Shown here: one piece after another, positions 46,237-57,035 of the stretch
Position numbering within the stretch: the first letter of the stretch is position 1
Layout of the letters: each line of letters begins with the position of its first letter
Virus record (IMG/VR): IMGVR_UViG_3300030060_000981
Location: 7,080-71,079 of that record
Length of the DNA: 64,000 nucleotides
Reading direction: 5' to 3' (one strand)
Source of the DNA: a virus
Notes under the pieces: model-generated
Seen by the model: only the letters and a program-made list of their open reading frames with translations
What the model was told of the DNA's origin: nothing
Databases searched by the model: none
Translations under genes and position numbers: made by a program

Positions 46237-46584
46237 TTATGCACAGATTAGAGAATCTGCATCTAAAAGTATCATCCCATCTCTAAAAAGTGTGGTTTGA
46301 TTGTTAAATGAAATAAACCAATCGAAGTTCTTTTGAAATACTGAACAACCGTATTTAACCTCACTAAGTATAGCATTTAATCTTGACTTAGTAGTGTTTG
46401 TAGTCCATCCGCAACTATCAACTTTAACTGCTTTAGTCTCATGGCATACAGTAGCAATACGATGACCATGTAGAAAAACAGATGAGCAGTTTGTAGAATC
46501 GTTGAACTCAACTCTGGTATTAGATGATGACCAGTCAGTTTTGTGAGTGATTGCCATGTTCATTTGCTGCTCAATCTTACGCAT
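46237..46584 (-). CDS. Conserved hypothetical protein, 115 residues
   Basis: The product contains NSTNCSSVFLHGHRIATVCHE-type strands (DSTNCSSVFLHGHRIATV) followed by WTTNTTKSRLNAILSEVKYG and VFQKNFDWFISF. I recall this strand-strand-helix-strand arrangement (LHG-x-x-IA, then TRLNA(I/L)L, then VFQK-x-F-x-WF) from short proteins shared by many marine T4-like phages. Its function is unknown. It is the first gene behind palindromic promoter A, with a 50-nt leader lacking a clear Shine-Dalgarno. MAITHK (46557) is an alternative start. Confidence 0.75.
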   Translation of the reverse strand: MRKIEQQMNMAITHKTDWSSSNTRVEFNDSTNCSSVFLHGHRIATVCHETKAVKVDSCGWTTNTTKSRLNAILSEVKYGCSVFQKNFDWFISFNNQTTLFRDGMILLDADSLICA

Positions 46585-46636: not shown

Positions 46637-46695
46637 ATAATACACCATTTTAGGGTCAGTGGGGTAAAGCTTGTGCCACTTTGTTTACTGGCACA
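46637..46695 (-). promoter_or_regulatory. Palindrome-class promoter A
   Basis: The 24-bp palindrome lies at 46672-46695 (TGTGCCAGT-N6-AGTGGCACA on the minus strand). An ACCCCA box follows, and TATTAT is at 46637-46642, 29 bp below the palindrome. It shares CCTAAAAT-x-GTG with promoter C. It drives the operon from 46584 down to about 44860. This copy lies 28 bp beyond the preceding stop codon. Confidence 0.75.
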
Positions 46696-46723
46696 CCCTA
46701 TGTAATAACAACTGTTTTTTCGA

Positions 46724-47140
46724 TTAGTATCCATCTATTCGATAATAATCATCATTAACTCCCTTCATTTTATCTACTAATGTATCAACACAATCCCTAT
46801 AATCATTGCCTTCAGTAATACATTGCTCGACATAATCTACCTCGTTATATGTTGCATTGTTCTTGTTATTTGATTCGCATTTGATATAATCACTATCCCT
46901 AACTGTACTAATATCACCCTCTAATTCTTGAGATGATATTACTTTAGGTTCTGCAAATTCACCTTCCCAACTATCAGTAACTTCCTCTAATGCGGTGAAA
47001 ACATTATCAATATCTAATGACAAGTCTCCTCCTTCATTGTAATCATCATTGCCTTGAATCCATCCTTCTAGTGCATATAAAATCGAAGAGATTTCACTGC
47101 CACTCAATGTTACTTTGTGAATCGAATCTTCAAATGTCAT
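46724..47140 (-). CDS. 138-residue acidic hypothetical protein
   Basis: The start MTFEDSIHK (47140) has GGAGG 7 bp upstream and was preferred over a longer frame. The N-terminal helix LSGSEISSILYALEGWIQ is followed by an acidic middle and a Cys-containing end (CITEGNDYRDCVDTLVDKM). No catalytic motif is visible. It overlaps the upstream gene by 11 bp and is the last gene of the C-promoter operon. Confidence 0.7.
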   Translation of the reverse strand: MTFEDSIHKVTLSGSEISSILYALEGWIQGNDDYNEGGDLSLDIDNVFTALEEVTDSWEGEFAEPKVISSQELEGDISTVRDSDYIKCESNNKNNATYNEVDYVEQCITEGNDYRDCVDTLVDKMKGVNDDYYRIDGY

Positions 47141-47312
47141 TGTTAACCTCCTCTCCTGATTTGTTGAACTCCTTGTCAAGAATAGGTACATATAGTATGC
47201 CCTTATCTGTTAACTTTGATGTCATAGATTGAAACCATTGATTGTTAACATTGTGCTGGTCTGGTGTTAAATCATTGAAGTAACTTTCAGACCATTGTTG
47301 ATAAGTTGCCAT
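47130..47312 (-). CDS. 60-residue hypothetical protein
   Basis: The frame MATYQQWSESYFNDLTPDQH is followed by NVNNQWFQSMTSKLTDKGIL and YVPILDKEFNKSGEEV. The W-x-E-x-Y-x-x-x-LTP-x-Q and KGILYVP patterns suggest a small helical domain followed by a strand. GGAGG precedes the start, which overlaps the upstream stop (TAATG). Confidence 0.68.
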   Translation of the reverse strand: MATYQQWSESYFNDLTPDQHNVNNQWFQSMTSKLTDKGILYVPILDKEFNKSGEEVNNDI

Positions 47313-47503
47313 TAGAATCCTCCAGATAATCGAATCATTTGTTGATAGATCTTATGTGCTTCATATTCAGTTATATCCTCTAATATTTCATTTCCATTCT
47401 CATCTTCTGTTGTGATTAGATCACCTTCAATAACATCAACTGTATCCCTTAGAATATCAAATAGGACATCAAATTGGTCATTGGTTAGTGTTAATTGTCT
47501 CAT
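47312..47503 (-). CDS. 63-residue acidic hypothetical protein
   Basis: The frame MRQLTLTNDQFDVLFDILRD is followed by the acidic TVDVIEGDLITTEDENGNEI and a C-terminal helix. The LT-x-x-QFD-x-L-x-x-IL pattern is a recurrent start in short accessory proteins of these phages. The ATG at 47503 overlaps the previous stop (ATGA); the longer GTG frame is less likely. It ends LSGGF because its last codons carry the next ribosome site. Confidence 0.68.
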   Translation of the reverse strand: MRQLTLTNDQFDVLFDILRDTVDVIEGDLITTEDENGNEILEDITEYEAHKIYQQMIRLSGGF

Positions 47504-47655
47504 GTTAACCACTTTTCATCGGTTGTTTCTAACAATTTACCTACCTTATAATCATATCCTTCGCAATACTCAACCTCTTCATAATGTTTGCAATGTTCAA
47601 AATCTTTTGCAATTCTCTTTGCTTCAAATGTGTAACTGTTTAATAGTTCAGTCAT
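47500..47655 (-). CDS. 51-residue hypothetical protein
   Basis: The frame MTELLNSYTFEAKRIAKDFE is followed by HCKHYEEVEYCEGYDYKVGK and an acidic end. It has two Cys and two His in the CKHYEEVEYC region, which might bind a metal, but the pattern matches no finger I know. It has a GGAGG ribosome site and is coupled on both sides (TAATG before, ATGA after). Confidence 0.65.
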   Translation of the reverse strand: MTELLNSYTFEAKRIAKDFEHCKHYEEVEYCEGYDYKVGKLLETTDEKWLT

Positions 47656-47906
47656 TAGAATTGTCCTCCGTTGTTGTTAGTGTCAAGTACAGTTTCGTTA
47701 GTTACGTTATCAACTAACTCGTCAAATAAGTCTTCATCAAAGTTATCAACTTCCTCTTTTAACTCCTCTTTAGTTAATGTAACAATGTATTCTGTAATTC
47801 CATCTTTTGCATATTGTAGCAAAGAATCCATGTCCATACCATCAACAACTAACTCAACATACTGTTCAATTAGTTTATCTTGTTGATCGTTATTTAATAC
47901 TATCAT
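47655..47906 (-). CDS. Conserved hypothetical protein, 83 residues (NNDQQDKLIEQY family)
   Basis: The acidic helical product begins MIVLNNDQQDKLIEQYVELV, then DGMDMDSLLQYAKDGITEYI and EELYDELVD-like DEDLFDELVDNVT. I recall near relatives (N-E-QQDKLIEQY, DELVDNVTNETVL) in many marine T4-like phages; no function is known. The start MIVLNN is fixed by GGAGG and a TAATG overlap. It ends NNGGQF, encoded by the ribosome site of the next gene. Confidence 0.78.
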   Translation of the reverse strand: MIVLNNDQQDKLIEQYVELVVDGMDMDSLLQYAKDGITEYIVTLTKEELKEEVDNFDEDLFDELVDNVTNETVLDTNNNGGQF

Positions 47907-48139
47907 TAGAATTGCCTCCAATAGAGTGAATTAAAGTCTGCTATGTTTAGATAATCATCATCATATATTTGATCCTCATCTTTATATACAGGCACTACAA
48001 ATTCATCTGCAAAATATTCTGCACTTATGTTTCCAAGTTCTTCACAAGCACGTAATACGTTGCCTATTCCTACATCATCTTGATCACATTCATCAATAAG
48101 AAATGCAATGTCCTTCTCTAATTGTGATTTATCCTTCAT
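47906..48139 (-). CDS. 77-residue acidic hypothetical protein
   Basis: The helical, Asp-rich product begins MKDKSQLEKDIAFLIDECDQ, then DDVGIGNVLRACEELGNIS and an acidic strand-rich end (NIADFNSLYWRQF). GGAGG lies before the ATG, which overlaps the upstream stop (TAATG). No family or catalytic residues are recognised. Confidence 0.7.
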   Translation of the reverse strand: MKDKSQLEKDIAFLIDECDQDDVGIGNVLRACEELGNISAEYFADEFVVPVYKDEDQIYDDDYLNIADFNSLYWRQF

Positions 48140-48369
48140 TATACACCTCCGTTGATTGTTAGTGAATTGTTGTGAATGTGCTTGTTAATTACACACGCTT
48201 GGTGAATATTAAAGAGTTTATCATAATCAACTCCCTCCCAGTCATCCCACTCTGAAACATAGTCAGAACAGTCAAAATCACCAGTTCCGTCTATATTTTG
48301 TGGGCATGATTTGAAGTCATTGTTATCATCAACCCAGAAGATTCTCCCAAATGTTTCAGATTTAAACAT
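48139..48369 (-). CDS. 76-residue acidic Trp/Asp-rich hypothetical protein
   Basis: The frame MFKSETFGRIFWVDDNNDFK is followed by CPQNIDGTGDFDCSDYVSEW and DDWEGVDYDKLFNIH. It has the look of a small beta protein with a C-terminal helix. GAGGAGG precedes the start. It ends INGGV because its last codons carry the next ribosome site. Function is unknown. Confidence 0.7.
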   Translation of the reverse strand: MFKSETFGRIFWVDDNNDFKSCPQNIDGTGDFDCSDYVSEWDDWEGVDYDKLFNIHQACVINKHIHNNSLTINGGV

Positions 48370-48374
48370 GGTAA

Positions 48375-48548
48375 TTAGTCCTCCTCATTGATAATTACAT
48401 CCCATACTTTAATGTATTGGGTTAACCAGTCCTTCTGGTATTGGGTGAGTTGGTTATCACCATCATAGAGTAGATCGTCTGCACTTGCTAATTCTAATCC
48501 ATTGCAATTACAGAAGTTATCTAACACTATTGTCAAGAATTGTAGCAT
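48375..48548 (-). CDS. 57-residue hypothetical protein (FLTIVLDN type)
   Basis: The frame MLQFLTIVLDNFCNCNGLEL is followed by ASADDLLYDGDNQLTQYQKD and WLTQYIKVWDVIINEED. It is an acidic all-helical product with a CNC pair. It contains an internal TTGACA that has no -10 partner and is therefore coding only. It lies 5 bp before the next gene and carries its GAGGAGG in the last codons. Confidence 0.66.
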   Translation of the reverse strand: MLQFLTIVLDNFCNCNGLELASADDLLYDGDNQLTQYQKDWLTQYIKVWDVIINEED

Positions 48549-48587
48549 GATAAAATGTTAGTAAGTGGACAAGAAAAAGGGGAAAGA

Positions 48588-48743
48588 TCACATTTTAGTG
48601 ACCTTATCCCATAACTGATTGAATACATCAGAACCAAAATCATCATTATACTTATCATCATAGTCTAAAGATGCAAGATCTCCAAACATTTGAGATAGTA
48701 ATTGTACTTGGTCGGATGTTAACTTAAGAGTTGAATTTGACAT
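48588..48743 (-). CDS. 51-residue hypothetical protein (MSNSTLKLT)
   Basis: The frame MSNSTLKLTSDQVQLLSQMF is followed by GDLASLDYDDKYNDDFGSDV and FNQLWDKVTKM. The LTSDQVQLLSQ start parallels the LT-x-DQFD-x-L start of the gene at 47312, so the two may be related. It has no strong Shine-Dalgarno. The stop is followed by a pyrimidine run (CTTTCCCCTTTTTC). Confidence 0.66.
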   Translation of the reverse strand: MSNSTLKLTSDQVQLLSQMFGDLASLDYDDKYNDDFGSDVFNQLWDKVTKM

Positions 48744-48767
48744 AATAAAAAGATTTAGTGAAGTGAA

Positions 48768-48920
48768 TTAAGGGTTGTTAGATAGAAACTTGTCCATTGC
48801 AATCTGCTGTGCCATCTTGTAAGCATCAGCATAAAATGGTGAATCTTTGTTTATACCTAACTCGTCTAATGTCTCATCAAATAATGTCTCAAAAATGACT
48901 TCATTTGCTAGAGTTGACAT
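48768..48920 (-). CDS. 50-residue hypothetical protein behind a structured leader
   Basis: The frame MSTLANEVIFETLFDETLDE is followed by LGINKDSPFYADAYKMAQQI and AMDKFLSNNP. It is acidic and helical, and is the first gene of a ten-gene run. The 5' region of about 85 nt holds a long hairpin (48943-49007) and no Shine-Dalgarno near the ATG, so its translation may depend on leader structure. Confidence 0.68.
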   Translation of the reverse strand: MSTLANEVIFETLFDETLDELGINKDSPFYADAYKMAQQIAMDKFLSNNP

Positions 48921-48942
48921 AAACAAATAATGCGAAAATACA

Positions 48943-49007
48943 AGTGGAGGGAACGGTCAAGAGGTGCTTCACCTTTCTAAGAAGGTACTAACTCGTTCCC
49001 CTCCACT
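48943..49007 (-). ncRNA. Structured 5' leader RNA of the small-gene operon
   Basis: On the minus strand AGTGGAGGG(G)AACG pairs with CGTTCCCTCCACT, giving about 13 bp with one bulged G. The 38-nt loop holds two alternative hairpins that share the same AGGT: ACCTT with AAGGT, and AGGTG-AAG-CACCT. It starts within a few bases of the predicted transcription start of promoter C. The outer stem also hides a GGAGGGG sequence. A regulatory switch is inferred. Confidence 0.6.
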
Positions 49008-49012
49008 CTTAT

Positions 49013-49070
49013 ATAATACACGATTTTAGGGTCAAATGGGGGATTAGTGGACAGTTTGTGAACTGTCACA
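49013..49070 (-). promoter_or_regulatory. Palindrome-class promoter C
   Basis: The 24-bp palindrome lies at 49047-49070 and TATTAT at 49013-49018, 28 bp below it, with CCCCCA near -35. The palindrome forms the last eight codons of the 49-residue gene. It drives the run from 48920 to 46724. Confidence 0.75.
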
Positions 49071-49193
49071 AGCTTTGTTTATACTTTTGTCCCTTAATAT
49101 AGGATAGTCGATGTTATTGAACTTTGGAAATCTATAGTTATGATCTATAACTATTTGACGGTAAAATTCCTCATCCCATTGATACTCAGTCAT
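49044..49193 (-). CDS. 49-residue hypothetical protein
   Basis: The frame MTEYQWDEEFYRQIVIDHNY is followed by RFPKFNNIDYPILRDKSINK and ACDSSQTVH. The last eight residues are encoded by palindrome C, so the C-terminus looks like an add-on shared with the gene at 50459 (both end in CDS plus five residues). The ATG overlaps the upstream stop (ATGA). Confidence 0.68.
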   Translation of the reverse strand: MTEYQWDEEFYRQIVIDHNYRFPKFNNIDYPILRDKSINKACDSSQTVH

Positions 49194-49567
49194 CTTTTTA
49201 TCCTCGGTACTTCTATTGTCCATGAAGGATTAACTATGCTAACTAACTCAAACTGTTTCTTGAATTGTTTCTCTCTTTCTTTCTTTTCCTTCTCCATTGT
49301 TAACTCAATCGTTTCAATAGTTGTACTTGGATTCTTTTCTTTTATACCCAAATATTCTAGGATAGATTCATCTATCATCTGAAATATCGTATCAAATGTT
49401 AAAGTTTCTCTCAAATTTACTGCAATTCGATCTATATCACCTTTGTCTAAGTATTCACCCTTGTTTACTTTCTCTGAGTAATCATCATACTGTGAAATAA
49501 GTTTTGCCCTAATCTCGACTAATTCATTTAAGTTAATCGTGATCTTTACATCATCATAAATTGCCAT
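49190..49567 (-). CDS. 125-residue helical hypothetical protein
   Basis: The N-terminus is a strand (MAIYDDVKITINLNELVEIR). Helices and a long charged coiled coil follow (ETIELTMEKEKKEREKQFKK), with a basic end. No catalytic motif is visible. It sits in the D-promoter operon, 6 bp after the 74-residue gene and overlapping the next by 4 bp. A protein-binding role is plausible from the coiled coil only. Confidence 0.72.
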   Translation of the reverse strand: MAIYDDVKITINLNELVEIRAKLISQYDDYSEKVNKGEYLDKGDIDRIAVNLRETLTFDTIFQMIDESILEYLGIKEKNPSTTIETIELTMEKEKKEREKQFKKQFELVSIVNPSWTIEVPRIKR

Positions 49568-49573
49568 AGTGAG

Positions 49574-49798
49574 TTAATCTCCAGAGTAAACACCATCTTT
49601 GTTGGTTAAATCTATTCTTGCAAAACAACAATATTCTTTAATATGTTCTCTCATTTCTGTATACATTGCAGCATAATCCCATTTCTTCTTTATATCAATG
49701 GAAATCATTTCTATCTCATCAGATGTTAACTTAGGATAGAATTGTTCTACTGCTTCAGTAATATTAATACTGAGTAAATGCTCTCTGTTAATTTTCAT
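49574..49798 (-). CDS. 74-residue hypothetical protein
   Basis: The frame MKINREHLLSINITEAVEQF is followed by YPKLTSDEIEMISIDIKKKW and a CC-containing segment (EYCCFARIDLTNKDG). It is mostly helical with an adjacent Cys pair. The LTSDEIEMI pattern recalls the LT-x-DQ starts of other proteins in this block. It overlaps the zinc-ribbon gene by 4 bp. Confidence 0.7.
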   Translation of the reverse strand: MKINREHLLSINITEAVEQFYPKLTSDEIEMISIDIKKKWDYAAMYTEMREHIKEYCCFARIDLTNKDGVYSGD

Positions 49799-49977
49799 TT
49801 AACCTCTACACTCCAATCATACTTTTCTACACTTTCTCTGCAACACATACAAACTATTGCTGACCATGAAAAATGATAAACTTTAGATGTTTGTGAACAT
49901 TTAGGACACTTAATCCATTTACCTGACCTACCACTTCTAGTGTGAGAAGTGATAGGTTTAAATGTTAATGTAGTCAT
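49795..49977 (-). CDS. 60-residue zinc-ribbon protein
   Basis: CPKC at 24-27 and CMCC at 43-46 form two knuckles 15 residues apart, a typical four-Cys zinc ribbon. The N-terminal tail is basic (HTRSGRSGKWIK) and may contact nucleic acid. No enzyme domain is attached. It lies 4 bp downstream of the 139-residue gene and overlaps the next gene (ATGA). Transcription-factor-like or RNA-binding roles are possible. Confidence 0.75.
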   Translation of the reverse strand: MTTLTFKPITSHTRSGRSGKWIKCPKCSQTSKVYHFSWSAIVCMCCRESVEKYDWSVEVK

Positions 49978-49981
49978 CAGA

Positions 49982-50401
49982 TTACCTCAAGTAAAGATAA
50001 CCACCTGCCCAACCTGTAAATGTTGGATCATGTAATTGCTCACGTTGATTGATAATTCTCATATCATAACGAACATATTTAGCAGGAGAATTGTAAGATG
50101 CTGGTTTGTAAACTTCACCAGTATTCTTATCAACAAATGCGTGAACACTTCCTTCTCTCCACTCATTACGATCTTGGAATGTATCGAATTCACGTTGCAT
50201 GATCTTGTAATACTTGCGACCATTCTTGATAACAAAATTACTAAGATTAGCAGTGCCATTCTTTACATCTTCTAACCTTCTTTTAGAATAGTCAGAATCA
50301 GATCCAGCAAACATTCTAATTGAATGTTGCTTATAGTTCTCTGTTAATGAATCACAATAGGATTGTGTCCATTCCAGAATTCTTTCAGTTAAAGATGCCA
50401 T
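49982..50401 (-). CDS. Conserved hypothetical protein, 139 residues (VHAFVDKNTGEVYKPAS)
   Basis: The N-terminal helix (ERILEWTQSYCDSLTENYKQ) leads to a basic region and then a beta part, GSVHAFVDKNTGEVYKPASY, with APAKYVRYD-like SPAKYVRYDMRI. I recall this C-terminal pattern in short proteins of T4-like and other marine phages; no function is known to me. It is the first gene of the D-promoter operon with AAGGGA 10 bp upstream. It ends GWAGGYLYLR. Confidence 0.78.
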   Translation of the reverse strand: MASLTERILEWTQSYCDSLTENYKQHSIRMFAGSDSDYSKRRLEDVKNGTANLSNFVIKNGRKYYKIMQREFDTFQDRNEWREGSVHAFVDKNTGEVYKPASYNSPAKYVRYDMRIINQREQLHDPTFTGWAGGYLYLR

Positions 50402-50427
50402 AGTGGTAAAATCCCTTGTACTCTTCT

Positions 50428-50485
50428 ATTATAACGGTTACAGACGATTTTAGGGGCATTAGGGGACACTTTTTAAACTGTCACA
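50428..50485 (-). promoter_or_regulatory. Palindrome-class promoter D
   Basis: The 24-bp palindrome lies at 50462-50485 and TATAAT at 50428-50433, 28 bp below it, with GCCCCT near -35. The palindrome exactly covers the last eight sense codons of the HEXXH gene. It drives 50401 to 49044. Confidence 0.75.
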
Positions 50486-50821
50486 CATTTCTCTATACAT
50501 AGTGCCTTCAATCTGATATGCTTGAGATTCTCTTATCCCCTCATCTTTGATGCCAAAAATGTCTTGAACTACATGGGTAAATTCGTGGAATAATGTTCTA
50601 AAATGCTCCTCATATCCTAGAGCATTATGTATAGTAACTAACCATGAATCTTCATCCACTCGTTCACACCAACCAAGTACATTATCCTCGGTTAAGTCAC
50701 AATAATGTACCTCAATTTCCTTGTTGCTGAATGTATCTCCAGAGTGATGATTACAGAAGTATTTGTAAGCATCAAAGGCAATATAGGAGCAATACTTATC
50801 ACCTGATGTGCAAATAGTCAT
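50459..50821 (-). CDS. HEXXH metallopeptidase-like protein
   Basis: This 120-residue protein has a HEFTH zinc motif at 79-83 inside the helix FRTLFHEFTHVVQDIFG, followed by RESQAYQIEG at about 97-106. The Glu of ExxA could supply the third zinc ligand, as in ImmA/SprT-like minimal peptidases. Asp/His-rich residues come before it (NHHSGDTFSNKEIEVHYC). It is only the catalytic core with no extra domain. It is the third gene after the ligase-like and nuclease-like genes, with a 2-bp gap. Its last eight codons are palindrome D. Confidence 0.78.
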   Translation of the reverse strand: MTICTSGDKYCSYIAFDAYKYFCNHHSGDTFSNKEIEVHYCDLTEDNVLGWCERVDEDSWLVTIHNALGYEEHFRTLFHEFTHVVQDIFGIKDEGIRESQAYQIEGTMYREMCDSLKSVP

Positions 50822-50823
50822 TG

Positions 50824-51378
50824 TTAGAAATCCAAGTAAGATTGATCTGCTTGATTGTAAAATACAGATAGATTTGTAGGTGGTAGAGTAACACTTATTT
50901 CAGGTAAATTACACTCATAGTAATCACCTTCATTCAGTCTAATCATAGCACCATCCGCACCTTCTGTATATAAACTTCTTGCGTGTTCATCATTAACAAC
51001 CACAACTCTTCGTGCTGTTAAATCTATAACAAGCAAGTAATCGTATGTACTAATTTGTTTAAAGTCCTCTACTGTTTTAGTCTCACTAAGAAAAGATTTA
51101 ACCTTAAACTTCTTAGTTGCTTTAGGATCTTTCCTCTTATAGAATAAGTTCTTACCCATCTTTAACTCTACTTTCTTATCATCAAATAAGAAATCGTATC
51201 CATTCTTATCAACTCGTTCCAAATTAGAGAACTTATCTATAGCTTTCTCTACCATAGTTGCCCTTGCAAAGTTATCAGCATTTGATGTAAATCCTTTATC
51301 TGAGTATAAAGAATCAACTACACCAAATACCTTGTTCCAATTAACATTTTGCTCTAGATGTTGTGTAAATGTATTCAT
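50824..51378 (-). CDS. PD-(D/E)XK-like nuclease, predicted
   Basis: This 184-residue protein shows a restriction-endonuclease-like core. It has a helix with Glu44 (TMVEKAIDKF), then GYDFLFDDKKVELKMGK with Asp62, Glu71 and Lys73 (D-x8-E-x-K), then a basic loop and a beta strand (STYDYLLVIDLTARRVVVV). These are the usual three catalytic residues of the fold. The length fits a stand-alone nuclease. It overlaps the ligase-like gene by 4 bp. DNA end processing or a restriction role are alternatives; the call is from motif only. Confidence 0.62.
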   Translation of the reverse strand: MNTFTQHLEQNVNWNKVFGVVDSLYSDKGFTSNADNFARATMVEKAIDKFSNLERVDKNGYDFLFDDKKVELKMGKNLFYKRKDPKATKKFKVKSFLSETKTVEDFKQISTYDYLLVIDLTARRVVVVNDEHARSLYTEGADGAMIRLNEGDYYECNLPEISVTLPPTNLSVFYNQADQSYLDF

Positions 51379-52274
51379 GGTCTTTGAATTAGAAAGTTTG
51401 CTCTAGAAAATACATCCCTATCTACAATCTTATATGAACCAAATTCGTTGTGAAGAACATAACCTTCATGCCCAACATCTTCACCATTGATATAACATTC
51501 TACATTATCTTCAACCATAATGTAATCTAACATCTGCATCTTGATTGTTGATACTAACTTCCACAATCTGAGGACATTTATATCAACATGATTGTAATCT
51601 GCGAGTGCGTGTAATACTAGATCATCTAATTCTACACCCTCTTTGATACATCTATTAAGATGTTTCTTAACTCGTGCAACAATAGTTCTATCGGGGAACT
51701 CACATAGTGTTGCAATCTGCTTTGCAAAGTTACATTTAGTGGTGATACTATCAACATCTAAATCTATCTCTGCTTCTGGTTCTATCCATTTAACATACTC
51801 ATTGTCTGCCCAATTAAACTCAAAAGGTTTAACAACTGCGTTCCTCAAATCATTATGTGCCTCATAATAAGTATGTGGTGCAATAATAATAGGTTGATCA
51901 ATAACTTTACTGAAAGCGTATGCAATTAGGTTGGGTTGATATACATTATCACCACCAAATCCTATAAAGTCACCTTGATAAATGCCATCCAAAAATGGTA
52001 AATTGTCATAACATTCATGTAGAATTCTTGCTACTTTACCAGAGTGGTTAGTATCAATATCCTCATGCGATTCATTGATCTTAATTTTAACTTTGTTGAA
52101 TACAGATTTAGTACCAACAAAGAAATTGCCAGTGGCAGGATTAGTACCCCAAACTATTGCTGGAGAACCATCAATCTTAACTGATATTTTAGAATCAGCA
52201 GTGAACCAGTTTAATACACTTAGATCACCACTTAATACCAAATCTTCAGGGTGTTCCATGTGTGTGTTTTTCAT
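51375..52274 (-). CDS. Ligase-like nucleotidyltransferase (DUF6267-type), predicted
   Basis: This 299-residue protein has marks of the covalent nucleotidyltransferase (ATP-dependent ligase/capping) fold. K33-x-D-G sits in SVKIDGSPAIVWG as motif I, FVGTKSVFNK may be motif III, HEGYVLH near residue 270 motif IV, and YKIVDRDVF motif V with its Lys. I recall similar proteins in marine T4-like phages, often labelled DUF6267. Nothing after motif V suggests an OB domain. It begins about at the predicted transcription start, so it may be leaderless, or use MEHPED at 52259. Confidence 0.72.
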   Translation of the reverse strand: MKNTHMEHPEDLVLSGDLSVLNWFTADSKISVKIDGSPAIVWGTNPATGNFFVGTKSVFNKVKIKINESHEDIDTNHSGKVARILHECYDNLPFLDGIYQGDFIGFGGDNVYQPNLIAYAFSKVIDQPIIIAPHTYYEAHNDLRNAVVKPFEFNWADNEYVKWIEPEAEIDLDVDSITTKCNFAKQIATLCEFPDRTIVARVKKHLNRCIKEGVELDDLVLHALADYNHVDINVLRLWKLVSTIKMQMLDYIMVEDNVECYINGEDVGHEGYVLHNEFGSYKIVDRDVFSRANFLIQRP

Positions 52275-52280
52275 ACTATT

Positions 52281-52339
52281 ATTATAAACTAAAAAACCCC
52301 CGAATGGGGGTTGTGTGTGCCAGTTCTAAAACTGGTTGT
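52281..52339 (-). promoter_or_regulatory. Palindrome-class promoter F
   Basis: The 24-bp palindrome lies at 52316-52339 and TATAAT at 52281-52286, 29 bp below it. A terminator for the upstream gene lies between them, and its CCCCCA arm occupies the -35 position. The palindrome contains the stop codon of the 89-residue gene. It drives the ligase-like/nuclease-like/HEXXH operon. Confidence 0.72.
52291..52312 (-). terminator. Rho-independent terminator
   Basis: On the minus strand AACCCCC and GGGGGTT form a 7-bp stem with a 4-nt loop, followed by TTTTTT. It ends the transcript of the 89-residue basic protein and sits inside promoter F. Confidence 0.92.
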
Positions 52340-52595
52340 TGATAAGTCTTTTTGTGAAATCTTCAAGATATAATAGAGGGAGTAAGATTAACTCTAGTCC
52401 ATCTAATTCTCTTACAGATCTTCTTACTTTCTTTTCAACATTTTTAACTGGTGTTTCTGTCACTTTAACTGCCTCAATCTGTGTAATCTTATTTACACTT
52501 TTTGCTGGAGTTACAGTGGTTTTCTTAACAACAGTTCTAGGTGTTTTCTTAGCAGTTGTAGATTTAACTGCTGAAGTTCTTCTCCTAGTTGCCAT
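52326..52595 (-). CDS. 89-residue basic Lys/Thr/Val-rich protein (histone H1-like tail)
   Basis: The first 60 residues are low-complexity and strongly basic (MATRRRTSAVKSTTAKKTPR, then TVVKKTTVTPAKS). They resemble the Ala/Lys/Pro tails of H1-like or nucleoid proteins. The last 30 form a hydrophobic helix (GLELILLPLLYLEDF). The start MATRRR was chosen over an upstream TTG. It has its own palindromic promoter B about 260 nt upstream and its own terminator. A DNA-binding or packaging role is inferred from composition. Confidence 0.72.
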   Translation of the reverse strand: MATRRRTSAVKSTTAKKTPRTVVKKTTVTPAKSVNKITQIEAVKVTETPVKNVEKKVRRSVRELDGLELILLPLLYLEDFTKRLINNQF

Positions 52596-52856
52596 AAGTA
52601 ACAAAAATGCAAGTGTGTAATGTGGGACTTACAGGACGTAATTTCTCTGCTGAACAGAGACAACCATAGATCCTTGCCCAAATGGTGAGGGAAAACAAAA
52701 CTGAGGGGAAGTCAATTACCTCAACAGTCATTTCTCTGCTTCTTATCATCTATCCTAACGGTATTTTTTACGATATGCGTGATGCAGTGACCAACCGTAA
52801 CATAATTAAGATGAATGTCAGAGTAGTTGAGAACCTCGTTTGTTTTCCACATTTAT
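52596..52856 (-). other. Long 5' leader of the basic-protein gene
   Basis: About 250 nt separate promoter B from the ATG at 52595. The region has a near-identical direct repeat (AGCAGAGAAAT(G/T)AC, around 52654 and 52735). It also has a perfect hairpin TCTCTG-TTCAG-CAGAGA and a TGAGG/CCTCA hairpin. A 54-codon frame (52585-52749) with AGGA upstream is present, but its composition (Cys, Trp, Arg, Pro) is unlike its neighbours. I read this as a structured leader rather than a gene; a leader peptide is possible. Confidence 0.5.
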
Positions 52857-52915
52857 ATAATACATGATTTTGGTGGCAGTGGGGTAAAGCGTGTGCCACT
52901 TTGTTGACTGTCCTA
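52857..52915 (-). promoter_or_regulatory. Palindrome-class promoter B
   Basis: The 24-bp palindrome lies at 52892-52915 and TATTAT at 52857-52862, 29 bp below it, with ACCCCA at -35. Its palindrome overlaps the stop codon at 52913-52915. From palindrome to -10 it closely matches promoter A. Confidence 0.75.
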
Positions 52916-53251
52916 ATAGTCAGGATGTCTTCCCTCTTGCGATTTATAACCATCTGCCATATTATATTCTCTTCTATTCTTTACATATTCCAACTCATTC
53001 CAGTTCTCTTTATTACATATTAGCAAGCAATGTATGTTCTTATGTCTCATTGGTTTACCAGAAGTATAAACACAATCTTTCTTTGGATATACATGAATCT
53101 CTATAGTTATATACTGTGAAATTGAGTTCCACCCTTGCTTTATACGCTTTTCATTATCTACAGGTTCACCCTTAAAATATACCCACCCCTCGTCTATATC
53201 TCCATTTGGTTTTCTCCAAATAACATAATCATCAACTTTTGGTTCATACAT
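52913..53251 (-). CDS. Conserved hypothetical protein, 112 residues (MYEPKVDDYV)
   Basis: The protein starts MYEPKVDDYVIWRKPNGDID and continues EGWVYFKGEPVDN and YITIEIHVYPKKDC. It then has basic and Cys/His-rich residues (MRHKNIHCLLIC) and a WNELEYVKNRRE segment. I recall this as a widely shared short protein of marine T4-like phages (KV-x-DYV-x-W, EGWVYFK, ITIE). It has an SH3-like beta start. The ATG at 53251 replaces a TTG frame; no Shine-Dalgarno is clear. Confidence 0.78.
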   Translation of the reverse strand: MYEPKVDDYVIWRKPNGDIDEGWVYFKGEPVDNEKRIKQGWNSISQYITIEIHVYPKKDCVYTSGKPMRHKNIHCLLICNKENWNELEYVKNRREYNMADGYKSQEGRHPDY

Positions 53252-53273
53252 TAGTATCAATTAGTAGGGTGAA

Positions 53274-53438
53274 TTAGTCTTCAATAATATACTCGTGTTC
53301 TTCAAACCATGAGTATAGGTTTAAAGATAAACTGAAACTATCTTCATCATTAATATTATATTCTTCAACCAACTGGTCAACCATACGTTCAATATCTGAT
53401 GTTTTTATACTCTTCACATTGAAAGATCGTGTACTCAT
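53274..53438 (-). CDS. 54-residue acidic hypothetical protein
   Basis: The frame MSTRSFNVKSIKTSDIERMV is followed by DQLVEEYNINDEDSFSLSLN and LYSWFEEHEYIIED. It is helical and acidic, with a pattern typical of short regulators. It lies 22 bp before the next gene and 12 bp after the one before it. No family is recognised. Confidence 0.62.
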   Translation of the reverse strand: MSTRSFNVKSIKTSDIERMVDQLVEEYNINDEDSFSLSLNLYSWFEEHEYIIED

Positions 53439-53450
53439 TGTTATATATTA

Positions 53451-53645
53451 TCAGTAGAATCTTTCATAATCATCACTAACTTGTACTTCAATAGTATCAA
53501 AGATTCTATTCAATGATCTAGCAAAAGTTCTATATCCAGATCCAACATATAATTGACCAGCAACTACAGAGAAGGTTGCAATTCCCCAGAATAAGTAATA
53601 GAATCTTGACTTAACTTGATTTCTTATTTTGTCTTTAGTAATCAT
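53451..53645 (-). CDS. Small membrane protein, 64 residues (SRFYYLFWGIATFSVVAG)
   Basis: A basic N-terminus (MITKDKIRNQVKSR) is followed by one membrane span (FYYLFWGIATFSVVAGQLYV) and a short soluble C-terminus. I recall the same span motif in short proteins of several marine T4-like phages; function is unknown. It is the first minus-strand gene after the divergent gap at 53646-53740. A TTGTCA-N17-TTACAT pair in that gap may be its promoter. Confidence 0.78.
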   Translation of the reverse strand: MITKDKIRNQVKSRFYYLFWGIATFSVVAGQLYVGSGYRTFARSLNRIFDTIEVQVSDDYERFY

Positions 53646-53684
53646 AATCTTTGTTGCGAAGTATGTAATAATTGTCAGTAATTG

Positions 53685-53713
53685 ATGACAAAATGAATAA
53701 ATAGTGGTATATT
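53685..53713 (+). promoter_or_regulatory. Plus-strand promoter of the 57-residue gene
   Basis: ATGACA (53685-53690), a 17-bp spacer and TATATT (53708-53713) form a fair sigma-70 site, 28 bp before the plus-strand ATG. Confidence 0.6.
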
Positions 53714-53740
53714 ATGAATTAAATTCAATCGGAGTTTAAA

Positions 53741-53914
53741 ATGCACAACTTAATGTCACATAATCAGTTAGAAGGTTGGAGATCTAATGTTACTCAATTA
53801 GAGGAGACAACAGATTACCAGAATCAGTTACTCAATGATTACTTTAATTGTCTCATTGAATGTGAAGATGATCAATCAAGTTGCAAACGAGTCTGCAAGG
53901 ATATGCTCACTTAA
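53741..53914 (+). CDS. 57-residue plus-strand hypothetical protein with four cysteines
   Basis: The frame MHNLMSHNQLEGWRSNVTQL is followed by EETTDYQNQLLNDYFNCLIE and CEDDQSSCKRVCKDMLT. Four Cys lie within 18 residues (C-x4-C-x6-C-x3-C), which could bind a metal or form a disulphide hairpin. GGAG lies 7 bp before the ATG, a promoter 28 bp upstream and a terminator 28 bp after the stop. It is a complete single-gene unit facing all others. Confidence 0.82.
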   Translation: MHNLMSHNQLEGWRSNVTQLEETTDYQNQLLNDYFNCLIECEDDQSSCKRVCKDMLT

Positions 53915-53941
53915 CGAATGAATCAAATTAAATATACCAAC

Positions 53942-53967
53942 AACCCTCTATGAAAATAGGGGGTTTT
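53942..53967 (+). terminator. Rho-independent terminator of the plus-strand gene
   Basis: AACCCTCTA and TAGGGGGTT form a 9-bp stem (one G-T pair) with a 6-nt loop, followed by TTTTATATT. It lies between two convergent genes and may also help stop the minus-strand methyltransferase transcript. Confidence 0.85.
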
Positions 53968-53982
53968 ATATTGCATAGTATA

Positions 53983-54900
53983 TCACAAAAGCTTTGTAAT
54001 ATCAACTGGTACACGTTCACCTATTAACTTATTGTAATCTTCATGCAGTTCACATCCAATATAATACCGACCCAAACTCCTTGCTACTGCTGCGGTTGTG
54101 CCACTTCCCATAAATGGATCAAGCACAATATCATTCTTCTCACTACCTGCTAATATACATGGTTTAATTAACTCTTCAGGATAAGTTGCAAAATGAGCAC
54201 CTTTATATGGTTTCTTGTTTATACTCCATACACTACGTTTATTCCTCTTTGAGTATGATTTAGTGAGTCCAGAATGAGGTTGTAAACCTGTACCTTCATT
54301 GTGATATTTGCCGTTAGTTCTATCTCTTGTACCCCAATCTTGTGCTGGTTCTTTTATACTTTCATTGTCATAATAATAATATTTACTCTTACTTAAGAGG
54401 AAGATATATTCATGTGATTTAGTACATCTATCCTTCACACTTTCTGGCATTGGGTTAGGTTTATGCCATATAATATCTTGTCTTAAATACCATCCATCTG
54501 CTCTTAATGCAAATGCTAACATCCAAGGTATTCCAATTAAATCTTTATCTTTATATCCTACAAGTTTATTACTCCTACGAGGTGTAGTCTTTGGTAGATC
54601 TTGTCTACTATTTGTAAATGTTTGTTTAGGTATGCAACCATCTTTCCTATAATTATAATAACTATCACCAATATTCAACCACAATGTACCATCATCAGTA
54701 AGACAATCTCTTACTAACCTGAATACATTTACCATCTCTTCAATATATTCTTCTGGTGATTGTTCCTGTCCTATTTGATTATCCTCACCACCATAATCAC
54801 GAAGACCATAGTAAGGTGGAGATGTCACACAGCACCTAGCTTTTTCATCGAATTGTTTAAGTGTCTCTCGACAATCACCAAATAGTATTGTATCCTTCAT
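53983..54900 (-). CDS. DNA methyltransferase (beta class, TSPPY)
   Basis: This 305-residue S-adenosylmethionine-dependent DNA methyltransferase carries catalytic motif IV TSPPY at 26-30. AdoMet motif I (DPFMGSGTT) is near the C-terminus at about 261-269. This order (IV before I) marks the beta class. SPPY occurs in N4-cytosine and some N6-adenine enzymes, so the base is undecided. Motifs such as GTLWLNIGDSY and RQDIIWHKPNPMPES fit the family. It is coupled to the helicase by ATGA. The target site is unknown. Protection of phage DNA from host restriction is the usual role. Confidence 0.93.
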   Translation of the reverse strand: MKDTILFGDCRETLKQFDEKARCCVTSPPYYGLRDYGGEDNQIGQEQSPEEYIEEMVNVFRLVRDCLTDDGTLWLNIGDSYYNYRKDGCIPKQTFTNSRQDLPKTTPRRSNKLVGYKDKDLIGIPWMLAFALRADGWYLRQDIIWHKPNPMPESVKDRCTKSHEYIFLLSKSKYYYYDNESIKEPAQDWGTRDRTNGKYHNEGTGLQPHSGLTKSYSKRNKRSVWSINKKPYKGAHFATYPEELIKPCILAGSEKNDIVLDPFMGSGTTAAVARSLGRYYIGCELHEDYNKLIGERVPVDITKLL

Positions 54901-56069
54901 CGTGTAATTACAGAAATTGCTGGTTCACCCTGATTGAAAATAGTATCAACAACTGCCTCAACTTTGCGTGATGTAGATATACCAACTCTATCATATACTG
55001 GTACAGAAATCAACCCATAAGTCTTAGTATCATTTCCCTTTCTTATTACTCTACCAATAGTTTGACTGATACCAATGTAATCCATGTTTCTTAAGAATAC
55101 TGCTGCTTCTAATCCTTTGACATTGATGCCCTCAGATAATATACTATGATGTAATACAACGAACTTCTTAGTATCATCATTACCCCACTCATTAAGTGTA
55201 GTAAAGAACTCATCACGATCTACTTTCTTACCATTGATAACACCACCAGTTTTAGCAGTTATATACATCCAGTCATAACCACGAGCATTAAGTTCAATGC
55301 AGAAGTCAGATTGAGATACTAGATTAACAATCTGTTTGGTAGATCTAGCACAGACTAATACTTTATCAATATCAATATCATCTATAGTTGATATAACATG
55401 GTCACAATCATGCTCATGTTTGAATCTACTATCTTCTACTACATCTATCTTCTTGATCTTAACTTTAGGTGGTAATATATGTCCTTCATCTACCAACTGA
55501 GGTGCTGGTACGTTGACTATAACTTTACCATAGATGTCCTCATCATTCATCCCTATCTTAAAAGGAGTCTTAGAATGTTTGGGTGTAGCAGTAAAGAAAT
55601 AGCAACGATTAGCATACATTGAAAAGAACTCAGTTGGTTCAACAAAGTTCTTCTGAACACTATTATGTGCTTCATCGAAGTATATTGCATCCACCTGAAT
55701 ATTACTTTCTTGTACTCTATGTAATGAATGATATGTTGTGAATATCAATACATTATCTGTATTATTATTAACCCAATAATCTATCTCGTCTGCTTTAGTT
55801 GTGCTTTTGTGATGTGTCTCTCCTGAGTGAACATGAAGTACATCTACATTATCAATTAGTTCTAAGAAATCTTCACATAATTGCTGTGCTAATAGTATGC
55901 GAGGTGCAACAATTACAATAGTCTTAGGTAAACTACTTGCAAATTGTATCTTAGCATCCTCAATCATACACATTGTTTTACCACCACCAGTGGGAACAAT
56001 CACCTGACCTTTAGATTGTAACTGCATTACATCTAAAGCATCCTGTTGATGTAATCGTAGTTTAATCAA
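54897..56069 (-). CDS. SF2 helicase (DEAH-type), coupled to the methyltransferase
   Basis: This 390-residue two-domain ATPase shows a Q-like LRLHQQDAL, Walker A PTGGGKT at 26-32, DEAH at 132-135, TATP at 160-163, and motif VI QTIGRVIRKG in the second domain. It resembles the helicase part of restriction subunits and the UvsW/RecG-like helicases of phages. No nuclease domain is attached. The start is TTG (56069), as no in-frame ATG precedes the Q motif. A three-codon frame ATG-TAT-TGA overlaps this TTG, so start-stop control is possible. It sits behind promoter G. Confidence 0.92.
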   Translation of the reverse strand: MIKLRLHQQDALDVMQLQSKGQVIVPTGGGKTMCMIEDAKIQFASSLPKTIVIVAPRILLAQQLCEDFLELIDNVDVLHVHSGETHHKSTTKADEIDYWVNNNTDNVLIFTTYHSLHRVQESNIQVDAIYFDEAHNSVQKNFVEPTEFFSMYANRCYFFTATPKHSKTPFKIGMNDEDIYGKVIVNVPAPQLVDEGHILPPKVKIKKIDVVEDSRFKHEHDCDHVISTIDDIDIDKVLVCARSTKQIVNLVSQSDFCIELNARGYDWMYITAKTGGVINGKKVDRDEFFTTLNEWGNDDTKKFVVLHHSILSEGINVKGLEAAVFLRNMDYIGISQTIGRVIRKGNDTKTYGLISVPVYDRVGISTSRKVEAVVDTIFNQGEPAISVITR

Positions 56070-56092
56070 TACATTTAATTCTCAATACATGT

Positions 56093-56150
56093 ATTATAAC
56101 AGAAAATCTTGGATTATGAAAGAGCGTGTGACAGTTCTCGAAGTGCCACC
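56093..56150 (-). promoter_or_regulatory. Palindrome-class promoter G
   Basis: The palindrome lies at 56127-56150 and an extended TGTTATAAT (TATAAT at 56093-56098) 28 bp below it. This copy is the least symmetric (left half GGTGGCACT). There is no CCCC box; TTTCAT is at -35. It drives the helicase-methyltransferase pair. Confidence 0.7.
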
Positions 56151-56335
56151 ATCTTAGTGAACAGTCCTTCCATATTATAAAATAACTTATAATTCTCTGT
56201 TGTAACGTAATGACCCATGATGTCATTACCATCACAATGCCATCCGTATGCTTGAACCTGTTCCTCTATACCATCTATTCTCATTTTCTTACTACCGTCT
56301 AAGTAAGAATGGTATCGTTCGTCTAAGTTAATCAT
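56114..56335 (-). CDS. 73-residue hypothetical protein
   Basis: The frame MINLDERYHSYLDGSKKMRI is followed by DGIEEQVQAYGWHCDGNDIM and GHYVTTENYKLFYNM. It is an alpha/beta mixture with His and Cys but no catalytic motif. The end (VALRELSHALS) is encoded across palindrome G. A TATAAT with extended TG lies 25-30 bp upstream without a palindrome. Confidence 0.66.
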   Translation of the reverse strand: MINLDERYHSYLDGSKKMRIDGIEEQVQAYGWHCDGNDIMGHYVTTENYKLFYNMEGLFTKMVALRELSHALS

Positions 56336-56359
56336 AGTTCTATGGTGGAGTGTGTTGAT

Positions 56360-56368
56360 ATTATAACA
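56360..56368 (-). promoter_or_regulatory. Extended -10 promoter
   Basis: The minus strand reads TGTTATAAT with no recognisable -35, 25 bp upstream of the 73-residue gene. It may also serve no purpose, as TATAAT is frequent in AT-rich DNA. Confidence 0.35.
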
Positions 56369-56419
56369 TAAGATATGTATTATATCTATAAACTTAATTA
56401 TCTCTTTAGACTTGAGTAA

Positions 56420-56632
56420 TCATTCGATATATTTACGAGGGTTGTGCATCTTCTTAGTCATATCAACAACATAGTCTCTAATTTCCATCAACTCGTCATA
56501 ACATTGTTGGTTATGAGCGCATGATCTGAGATGATTATCAGGTTTCAACAACGATTCTAAAAAAATAGAATGTGCAGCATCCCACTTCTCAAACGAAGTC
56601 AGTTTCTTTTCTAATGTGTTTTGATCCTTCAT
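56420..56632 (-). CDS. 70-residue helical hypothetical protein
   Basis: The frame MKDQNTLEKKLTSFEKWDAA is followed by HSIFLESLLKPDNHLRSCAH and NQQCYDELMEIRDYVVDMTK. It is all helix, with a CAHNQQC segment that could bind metal. It lies 22 bp after the stop of the preceding gene, in the E-promoter unit. Confidence 0.7.
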   Translation of the reverse strand: MKDQNTLEKKLTSFEKWDAAHSIFLESLLKPDNHLRSCAHNQQCYDELMEIRDYVVDMTKKMHNPRKYIE

Positions 56633-56654
56633 GTGATTCAGAATGTAAGTTTAG

Positions 56655-56849
56655 TTATTTAACAACTTCCCAGTTGTCATCTCCACTCTCAAAGATCTCG
56701 AAAGAATACCTACGAGATATAGATGCAAGCACAACCTTACCATGCTCACGCTTTACTACACGACATGAATGTAGACGATCCATGTCATTATTAAACCTAT
56801 CCTCTGCAACAGGAGACTTGGGTTTAACACATAAAAATTCTGATTTCAT
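56655..56849 (-). CDS. Conserved hypothetical protein, 64 residues (MKSEFLCV)
   Basis: The chosen start MKSEFLCVKPKSPVAEDRFN is followed by NDMDRLHSCRVVKREHGKVV and ISRRYSFEIFESGDDNWEVV. I recall this short family (MKSEFLCV-x-PK, LHSCR, DDNWE) from many marine T4-like phages, with no known function. A longer upstream start has no support. A 16-codon frame ends at TGATG on this start, so a leader peptide is possible. It is the first gene behind promoter E, with a leader of about 120 nt. Confidence 0.8.
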   Translation of the reverse strand: MKSEFLCVKPKSPVAEDRFNNDMDRLHSCRVVKREHGKVVLASISRRYSFEIFESGDDNWEVVK

Positions 56850-56977
56850 CAATAAACGAATGTAATGGCGGACTGAGTTAGACGTACACCCCAATTCATA
56901 AAAATGAGGAACGTGGTGACAAATAGTAGTTTGTCCGATAACGAATATTTCATCAATGGAAATTATTTGATGGACTT

Positions 56978-57035
56978 ATTATAACACAGATATTGCCGAG
57001 TTAACGAATGGTGTGACAGTTCTTAAACTGTCCTA
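56978..57035 (-). promoter_or_regulatory. Palindrome-class promoter E
   Basis: The palindrome lies at 57012-57035 and TATAAT at 56978-56983, 28 bp below it. Its far edge overlaps the stop codon of the 898-residue fibre gene (57033-57035). There is no CCCC box. Confidence 0.75.

Follow-up and report, generated by a model that had tools for sequence, protein, structure and literature searches.

The window analysed here, a stretch of 64,000 bases, covers bases 7080-71079 of the 78,680-base virus record IMGVR_UViG_3300030060_000981, whose closest records are marine T4-like cyanophages, namely the single-cell virus AG-345-O18 and the Prochlorococcus phages P-TIM68, P-SSM7 and P-SSM2. The element under study is a 24-bp palindrome, found in seven copies on the minus strand of the window, which are concentrated in the accessory region and are each followed by a -10 hexamer and by genes. 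A first-pass annotation of the window had listed the seven copies, and all of them were confirmed at their positions. An Rfam search of the window gave no match to a known RNA.

Seven promoters in the viral record

The palindrome TGTGCCAGTAAACAAAGTGGCACA at 46672-46695 is separated by 29 bp from a TATTAT hexamer at 46637-46642, below which lies the gene at 46237-46584 (Kyano_Gp96, PF23790). The copy TGTGACAGTTCACAAACTGTCCAC at 49047-49070 stands 28 bp from TATTAT (49013-49018) and is followed by small open reading frames (ORFs) at 48.9-47.3 kb. Again with a gap of 28 bp, TGTGACAGTTTAAAAAGTGTCCCC (50462-50485) is found above TATAAT at 50428-50433 and the DUF7717 gene (PF24835) at 49982-50401. 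The fourth palindrome, ACAACCAGTTTTAGAACTGGCACA at 52316-52339, has TATAAT after 29 bp (52281-52286) and then the DUF6267 gene (PF19782) at 51375-52274; its spacer is occupied by an intrinsic-terminator-like hairpin on the same strand, AACCCCCATTCGGGGGTTTTTT at 52291-52312. At 52892-52915, TAGGACAGTCAACAAAGTGGCACA lies 29 bp from TATTAT (52857-52862) and precedes small ORFs at 52.85-52.33 kb, while GGTGGCACTTCGAGAACTGTCACA at 56127-56150 lies 28 bp from TATAAT (56093-56098) and precedes a helicase gene (54897-56069) and an N6/N4 DNA methyltransferase gene (53983-54900). The last copy, TAGGACAGTTTAAGAACTGTCACA at 57012-57035, is followed after 28 bp by TATAAT at 56978-56983 and by the gene at 56655-56894 (phrog_1653). 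These spacings and -10 letters agree with the first-pass annotation at every site.

The palindromic arrangement of the half-sites also held, but their letters are better given as TGTG(A/C)CA(G/C)T(T), as copies deviate at the outer bases from the consensus first proposed (for example TAGGACAGT, GGTGGCACT and ACAACCAGT). The centre of the palindrome, first placed at about -52, was computed to lie at about -52.5 to -54.5 when the start of the -10 is taken as -12. The promoters at 46672, 49047 and 52892 have a longer -10 region in common, roughly CCCTAAAATNRTGTATTATATAA, and these three are therefore not fully independent. The long -10 subtype (roughly CCCYAAAATCGTGTATTNTATAAG) was seen in three phages, that is at these three positions of the window, at 48602 and 53040 in Syn9 and at 146-151 kb in S-SKS1, and it sits below the palindrome nearly always. 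The genes of the seven promoters, first described as a middle-gene set, could be expressed early rather than middle.

A matrix combining the palindrome, a gap of 28-30 bp and the -10 was trained on other phages and was run with both strands counted. At a threshold of at least 18 bits it gave 13 matches in the record, every one of them on the seven palindromes, and no match elsewhere in the 78,680 bases, late region included. First-order Markov shuffles of the record (n=200) gave a mean of 0.07 matches and a maximum of 2. 

Structure of the site in related phages

From 218 sites a consensus of TGTG(A/C)CA(G/C)TT-N4-AA(C/G)TG(G/T)CACA, or TGTGMCASTT-N4-AASTGKCACA, was obtained. It matches neither the NtcA box (GTA-N8-TAC) nor the Pho box (CTTA-N7-CTTA) as these are defined in PMC3037559. 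Pooled over palindromes with at least 15 of 18 matching positions, the -10 was found at 28, 29 and 30 bp in 12, 46 and 36 sites, respectively, whereas other spacings had mostly 1-6 sites each, with 15 at 35 bp.

Further properties were taken from a set of 197 sites scoring at least 20 bits with a -10 at 28-30 bp. An ORF start lies no more than 200 nt below the predicted transcription start in 157 of them, against 84 in the reverse direction, and only 34 lie inside ORFs of at least 100 amino acids, compared with 82% of random positions. The predicted +1 is a conserved purine in 94% of the sites, and the set shows what is expected of sigma-70 promoters, i.e. a -10 with a purine about 7 nt below it. 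The absence of a TTGACA, as first noted, stands for the seven sites of the window but does not extend to relatives, where a weak -35 (at least 4 of 6 matches, at 16-18 bp) is enriched, with 85 of the 197 sites against 20.9 expected. An intrinsic terminator forms the spacer of 24 sites, where 0.35 would be expected, as at 52291-52312 in the window, and such a terminator lets one operon end and the following one begin within 60 bp, a compact module.

As an intergenic inverted repeat, adjoined in those 24 cases by a true terminator, the palindrome might be taken for an RNA hairpin at which the upstream transcript is terminated or processed. It is conserved in sequence, however, and its distance to the -10 is fixed. 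Moreover, positions 5 and 8 of the half-sites vary independently, so that about half of the copies could not pair fully, which argues for a DNA dyad bound by a protein dimer and not for an RNA stem. We regard the hairpin explanation as barely credible.

A published putative Pho box of S-PM2 at 22067 (CCTATACT GAT CTCAGTTC, PMC10976474) overlaps TATACT, the apparent -10 of a promoter of this group.

Distribution among cyanophages

The 197 copies come from 17 of the 19 genomes searched by matrix, the freshwater phage S-CRM01 and also S-SKS1 among them. At the lower threshold of 18 bits, with both strands counted, the isolate genomes had 57 (ACG-2014f), 37 (S-CRM01), 29 (S-SSM7), 28 (P-SSM2), 23 (S-PM2), 22 (P-RSM4), 20 (P-SSM7), 18 (S-SKS1), 16 (P-SSM4), 14 (P-HM1), 11 (S-RSM4), 9 (Syn9), 4 (P-TIM68) and 1 (S-SM2) matches, where shuffles give 0-0.3. 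The pelagiphage HTVC008M had no match at this threshold. A scan of viral contigs with the exact consensus found at least 120 stretches. Among the matches listed, most contigs have Kyanoviridae-like genes, and a TATAAT-like hexamer follows at 28 bp (12), 29 bp (43) or 30 bp (30), any other spacing occurring at most 6 times. One 3,946-base stretch of a viral contig without matching phage genes (L100) carries two identical palindromes with TATGAT 28 bp after each.

Most copies gather in one 35-kb stretch of each motif-bearing genome and recur at orthologous genes. In eight of the panel genomes the palindrome stands upstream of the gene of the CobT-like peptidase (phrog_459), usually at 58-59 nt, and the same was found in many distant phages for CobS, DUF6267, the early helicase, DUF7717 and Kyano_Gp96. 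Copies at syntenic genes of related phages, which the first-pass annotation suggested looking for, are hence conserved, and its view of a coordinated promoter set, whose dyad is placed where activators typically bind, gains support from this.

The palindrome in host promoters

Near-perfect palindromes are rare in hosts. The exact consensus gave 55 matches in 257 Gb of genomes, which is near chance, and no Prochlorococcus or Synechococcus record was among them. Allowing one mismatch, it was found in 8 of 161 Cyanobiaceae genomes; for the class Cyanobacteriia, 48 of 390 genomes had the palindrome, where a control pattern gave about 4. The Cyanobiaceae scan could be read as showing no host regulon, a reading that was overturned when Yfr2 loci were aligned on the RNA. 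Directly below the palindrome, five loci (L294, L382, L385, L386 and L387) carry a Cyano-1 RNA (RF01701), which we take to be the Yfr2 small-RNA family; the identification also leans on common GGAAACA/GTGAGGAG features. In an unselected independent sample of 30 Cyano-1 loci oriented on the RNA, some of them from Prochlorococcus-sized genomes (L432-L436), the palindrome was present in 18, its right edge lying 35-41 nt upstream of where the RNA starts, compared with none of 30 control windows. A TAnnnT hexamer begins 28-31 bp below the palindrome in 17 of 23 such Cyano-1 promoters. That the promoter set is phage-specific, as the first-pass annotation had it, is accordingly not supported: the motif is common to nearly all T4-like cyanophages tested and the same palindrome stands at the corresponding place in host Yfr2 promoters.

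Other host copies were also seen. In three Cyanobiaceae loci (L376, L380 and L373), TGCTAC or a related hexamer is preceded at about 29 bp by a near-perfect palindrome. Two of these records, L376 and L380, include 16S rRNA in the locus, and there the palindrome lies about 400 bp upstream of it; a general link to host rRNA promoters was rejected, since 30 other 16S loci lack the palindrome. In three loci of Fischerella/Westiellopsis type (L266, L283 and L288) a perfect palindrome stands beside a conserved repeat-like sequence, and a conserved gene (MTIQTLQVGNEVLQADQLMSLL...) follows it after about 400 bp in L288.

A regulator of Yfr2 promoters has been published. According to PMC6778093, which cites Lambrecht 2018, the GntR regulator PMM1637 is found in all cyanobacteria and binds yfr2 promoters with the motif CGRE1, which that text places nowhere in the MED4 genome besides yfr2 promoters; the same text has Yfr2 induction under nitrogen starvation and high light mediated by PMM1637. 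PlmA has been described as a GntR regulator that forms homodimers and occurs only in cyanobacteria, a partner of PII-PipX and tied to Yfr2 regulation, with a regulon undefined as of 2018 (PMC6243067). The Yfr2a promoter equals that of psbA2 in strength (PMC2662882). A strong GntR match was found in 8 of 8 Cyanobiaceae genomes, as a single match in seven and together with a second, weak one in the remaining genome (G128). The DNA-binding stretch of the host GntR protein is nearly invariant (MQTGLHRNTISKVYRQLE-DGVVEA-AGSGIYVRD).

Search for a phage-encoded regulator

Profile searches over 9-14 genomes recorded which phage proteins are present in each. In this phyletic profile no phage protein family was present in all motif-rich genomes and absent from the motif-poor ones. 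The families phrog_485 and phrog_507 were each examined and do not fit the profile. The two candidates that resemble DNA-binding proteins fail as well: S-SSM7, S-CRM01 and P-HM1 lack the AbrB/MazE-like phrog_661, and the small HTH-like phrog_1920 is encoded by S-SM2 and was not found in S-SSM7, P-HM1 and P-SSM4. No GntR protein was found in any of 15 virus records (14 phages and the record studied here). In nine phages, proteins of phrog_661 (50-65 amino acids) are encoded on or close to the border of the palindrome-rich region, for example at 54009 in P-RSM4, 69216 in P-SSM2, 1910 in S-PM2 and 59905 in ACG-2014f.

An activator of phage origin, conserved among T4-like cyanophages, could nevertheless bind the palindrome, the Yfr2 promoters being merely similar or descending from an ancestral common factor. 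T4 offers a precedent, as its middle and late genes use phage factors, and the frequency of near-perfect copies in phages set against their rarity in hosts points the same way. Against this, no family follows the distribution of the motif, phrog_661 and phrog_1920 included, and it would leave without explanation why Yfr2 promoters agree with the phage sites in sequence, position and spacing. We consider a phage activator unlikely. The first-pass suggestion of an activator perhaps encoded outside the window loses ground on the same evidence: no phage family tracks the motif, the phages have no GntR protein, and the palindrome occurs in Yfr2 promoters, for which a host GntR regulator is published.

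Proposed role of PlmA

The explanation that we favour, and hold to be probable, is that the phages exploit host PlmA as an activator by means of a Yfr2-type palindrome and do not use a factor of their own. The phage would possess the upstream element of host Yfr2 (Cyano-1) promoters in many copies. The dimeric PlmA (PMM1637 in Prochlorococcus MED4) would bind the palindrome, centred at about -53, and recruit the host sigma-70 RNA polymerase, used unmodified, to the -10 located 28-30 bp below, a weak -35 being optional. On this account the palindrome would correspond to CGRE1, PlmA would bind the phage copies and activate their promoters, and the phage genes below would presumably be early ones. 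Exploitation of PlmA would account for the lack of a phage protein that matches the motif, for the missing motif in HTVC008M and for the way in which a single promoter set could serve several hosts.

Several points weigh against this explanation. S-SM2 has only 1 weak site and P-TIM68 only 3-4, despite related hosts; the cyanosiphovirus PSS2 has none at 18 bits, and a pattern search found no motif in S-TIM5 and P-SSP7. Not every cyanophage therefore needs PlmA sites. In S-SM2 and P-TIM68, both Kyanoviridae, the element is almost lost and early promoters must work by other means; a de novo search of P-TIM68 and HTVC008M for an alternative palindrome brought up nothing that stood out clearly from shuffles. 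Furthermore, host copies are weaker and fewer than phage copies, and those of the Prochlorococcus-sized genomes (L432-L436) consist of one strong and one poor half-site (TGTGACAGTTAAGATAGAGGTCTA).

The palindrome was also likened to CGRE1 by its place in yfr2 promoters and not by its letters, which leaves room for a host factor other than PlmA that binds the element in Yfr2 and phage promoters alike. The palindrome is, however, the evident upstream element common to the sampled Yfr2 promoters, and PMM1637 is the published binder of these promoters (PMC6778093). We give another host factor little chance.

PlmA could, finally, act as a repressor. Host PlmA or a phage protein would then serve as a brake on the promoters at some stage, for stress silencing or the shut-off of early genes. 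GntR proteins are frequently repressors, and a protein at this site would block the upstream DNA that is contacted by the polymerase alpha subunit. The position upstream of the -35 and the near-fixed distance to the -10 are, on the other hand, the usual geometry of an activator, and since spacers are often filled by a terminator or lack a -35, recruitment of the polymerase must be helped by something. The Yfr2 induction ascribed to PMM1637 in PMC6778093 also speaks against a brake, which we find improbable.

Whether much of the accessory, and probably early, transcription of abundant ocean phages depends through dozens of Yfr2-like promoters on PlmA, a host stress regulator tied to the nitrogen sensor PII-PipX, is in our judgement an evenly balanced question. 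If so, the onset of infection would be coupled to the nitrogen and light state of the host, and the fact that one promoter set works in many hosts would be explained in part by the DNA-binding domain of PlmA, which is nearly invariant across Prochlorococcus and Synechococcus. The control of early and middle transcription in T4-like cyanophages, which lack MotA and AsiA, has been described as unclear (PMC2984593). The present analysis puts forward a testable host factor and, in 17 genomes, a total of about 200 predicted promoters. The proposal would tie the expression of phage genes to the nitrogen network of PII-PipX-PlmA, with competition of phage genomes and Yfr2 promoters for PlmA as a measurable consequence. 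The piracy of host regulators, seen so far at single nutrient genes, would then reach the greater part of a gene block. Should Lambrecht 2018 already have made the phage link too, our finding would be a confirmation.

Comparison with known systems

Doron 2016 reportedly found a novel element upstream of early genes in Syn9 and P-TIM40 that is conserved among T4-like cyanophages. In Syn9 we found six sites of at least 20 bits, four of them at 48.5-53.0 kb. If the two elements are the same, what is added here is the identity with a host promoter element and PlmA.

The late promoters of P2 and P4 that depend on Ogr/Delta carry a dyad TGT-N12-ACA centred near -55, a position similar to that of the palindrome. 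Their activator is a phage zinc-finger protein and their half-sites differ in sequence and spacing, the outer TGT and ACA being 18 bp apart in our element. The middle promoters of T4 have an activator site in place of the -35, above a sigma-70 -10, as is proposed for the palindrome. The MotA box is, however, non-palindromic, lies at about -30 and is served by phage MotA and AsiA, whereas the palindrome is centred near -53. Host PhoB sites in cyanophage promoters (pstS of P-SSM2; S-PM2, PMC10976474) are a case of a host regulator exploited through a promoter site, but site and protein are others, and a few nutrient-stress genes are involved there compared with most accessory operons here. In the control of Yfr2 by CGRE1 and PMM1637 in marine picocyanobacteria (Lambrecht 2018, cited in PMC6778093), the host promoters bear the palindrome at the same position and with the same -10 spacing. 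That system covers one or two host small RNA genes, whereas here up to 37 phage promoters are found per genome.

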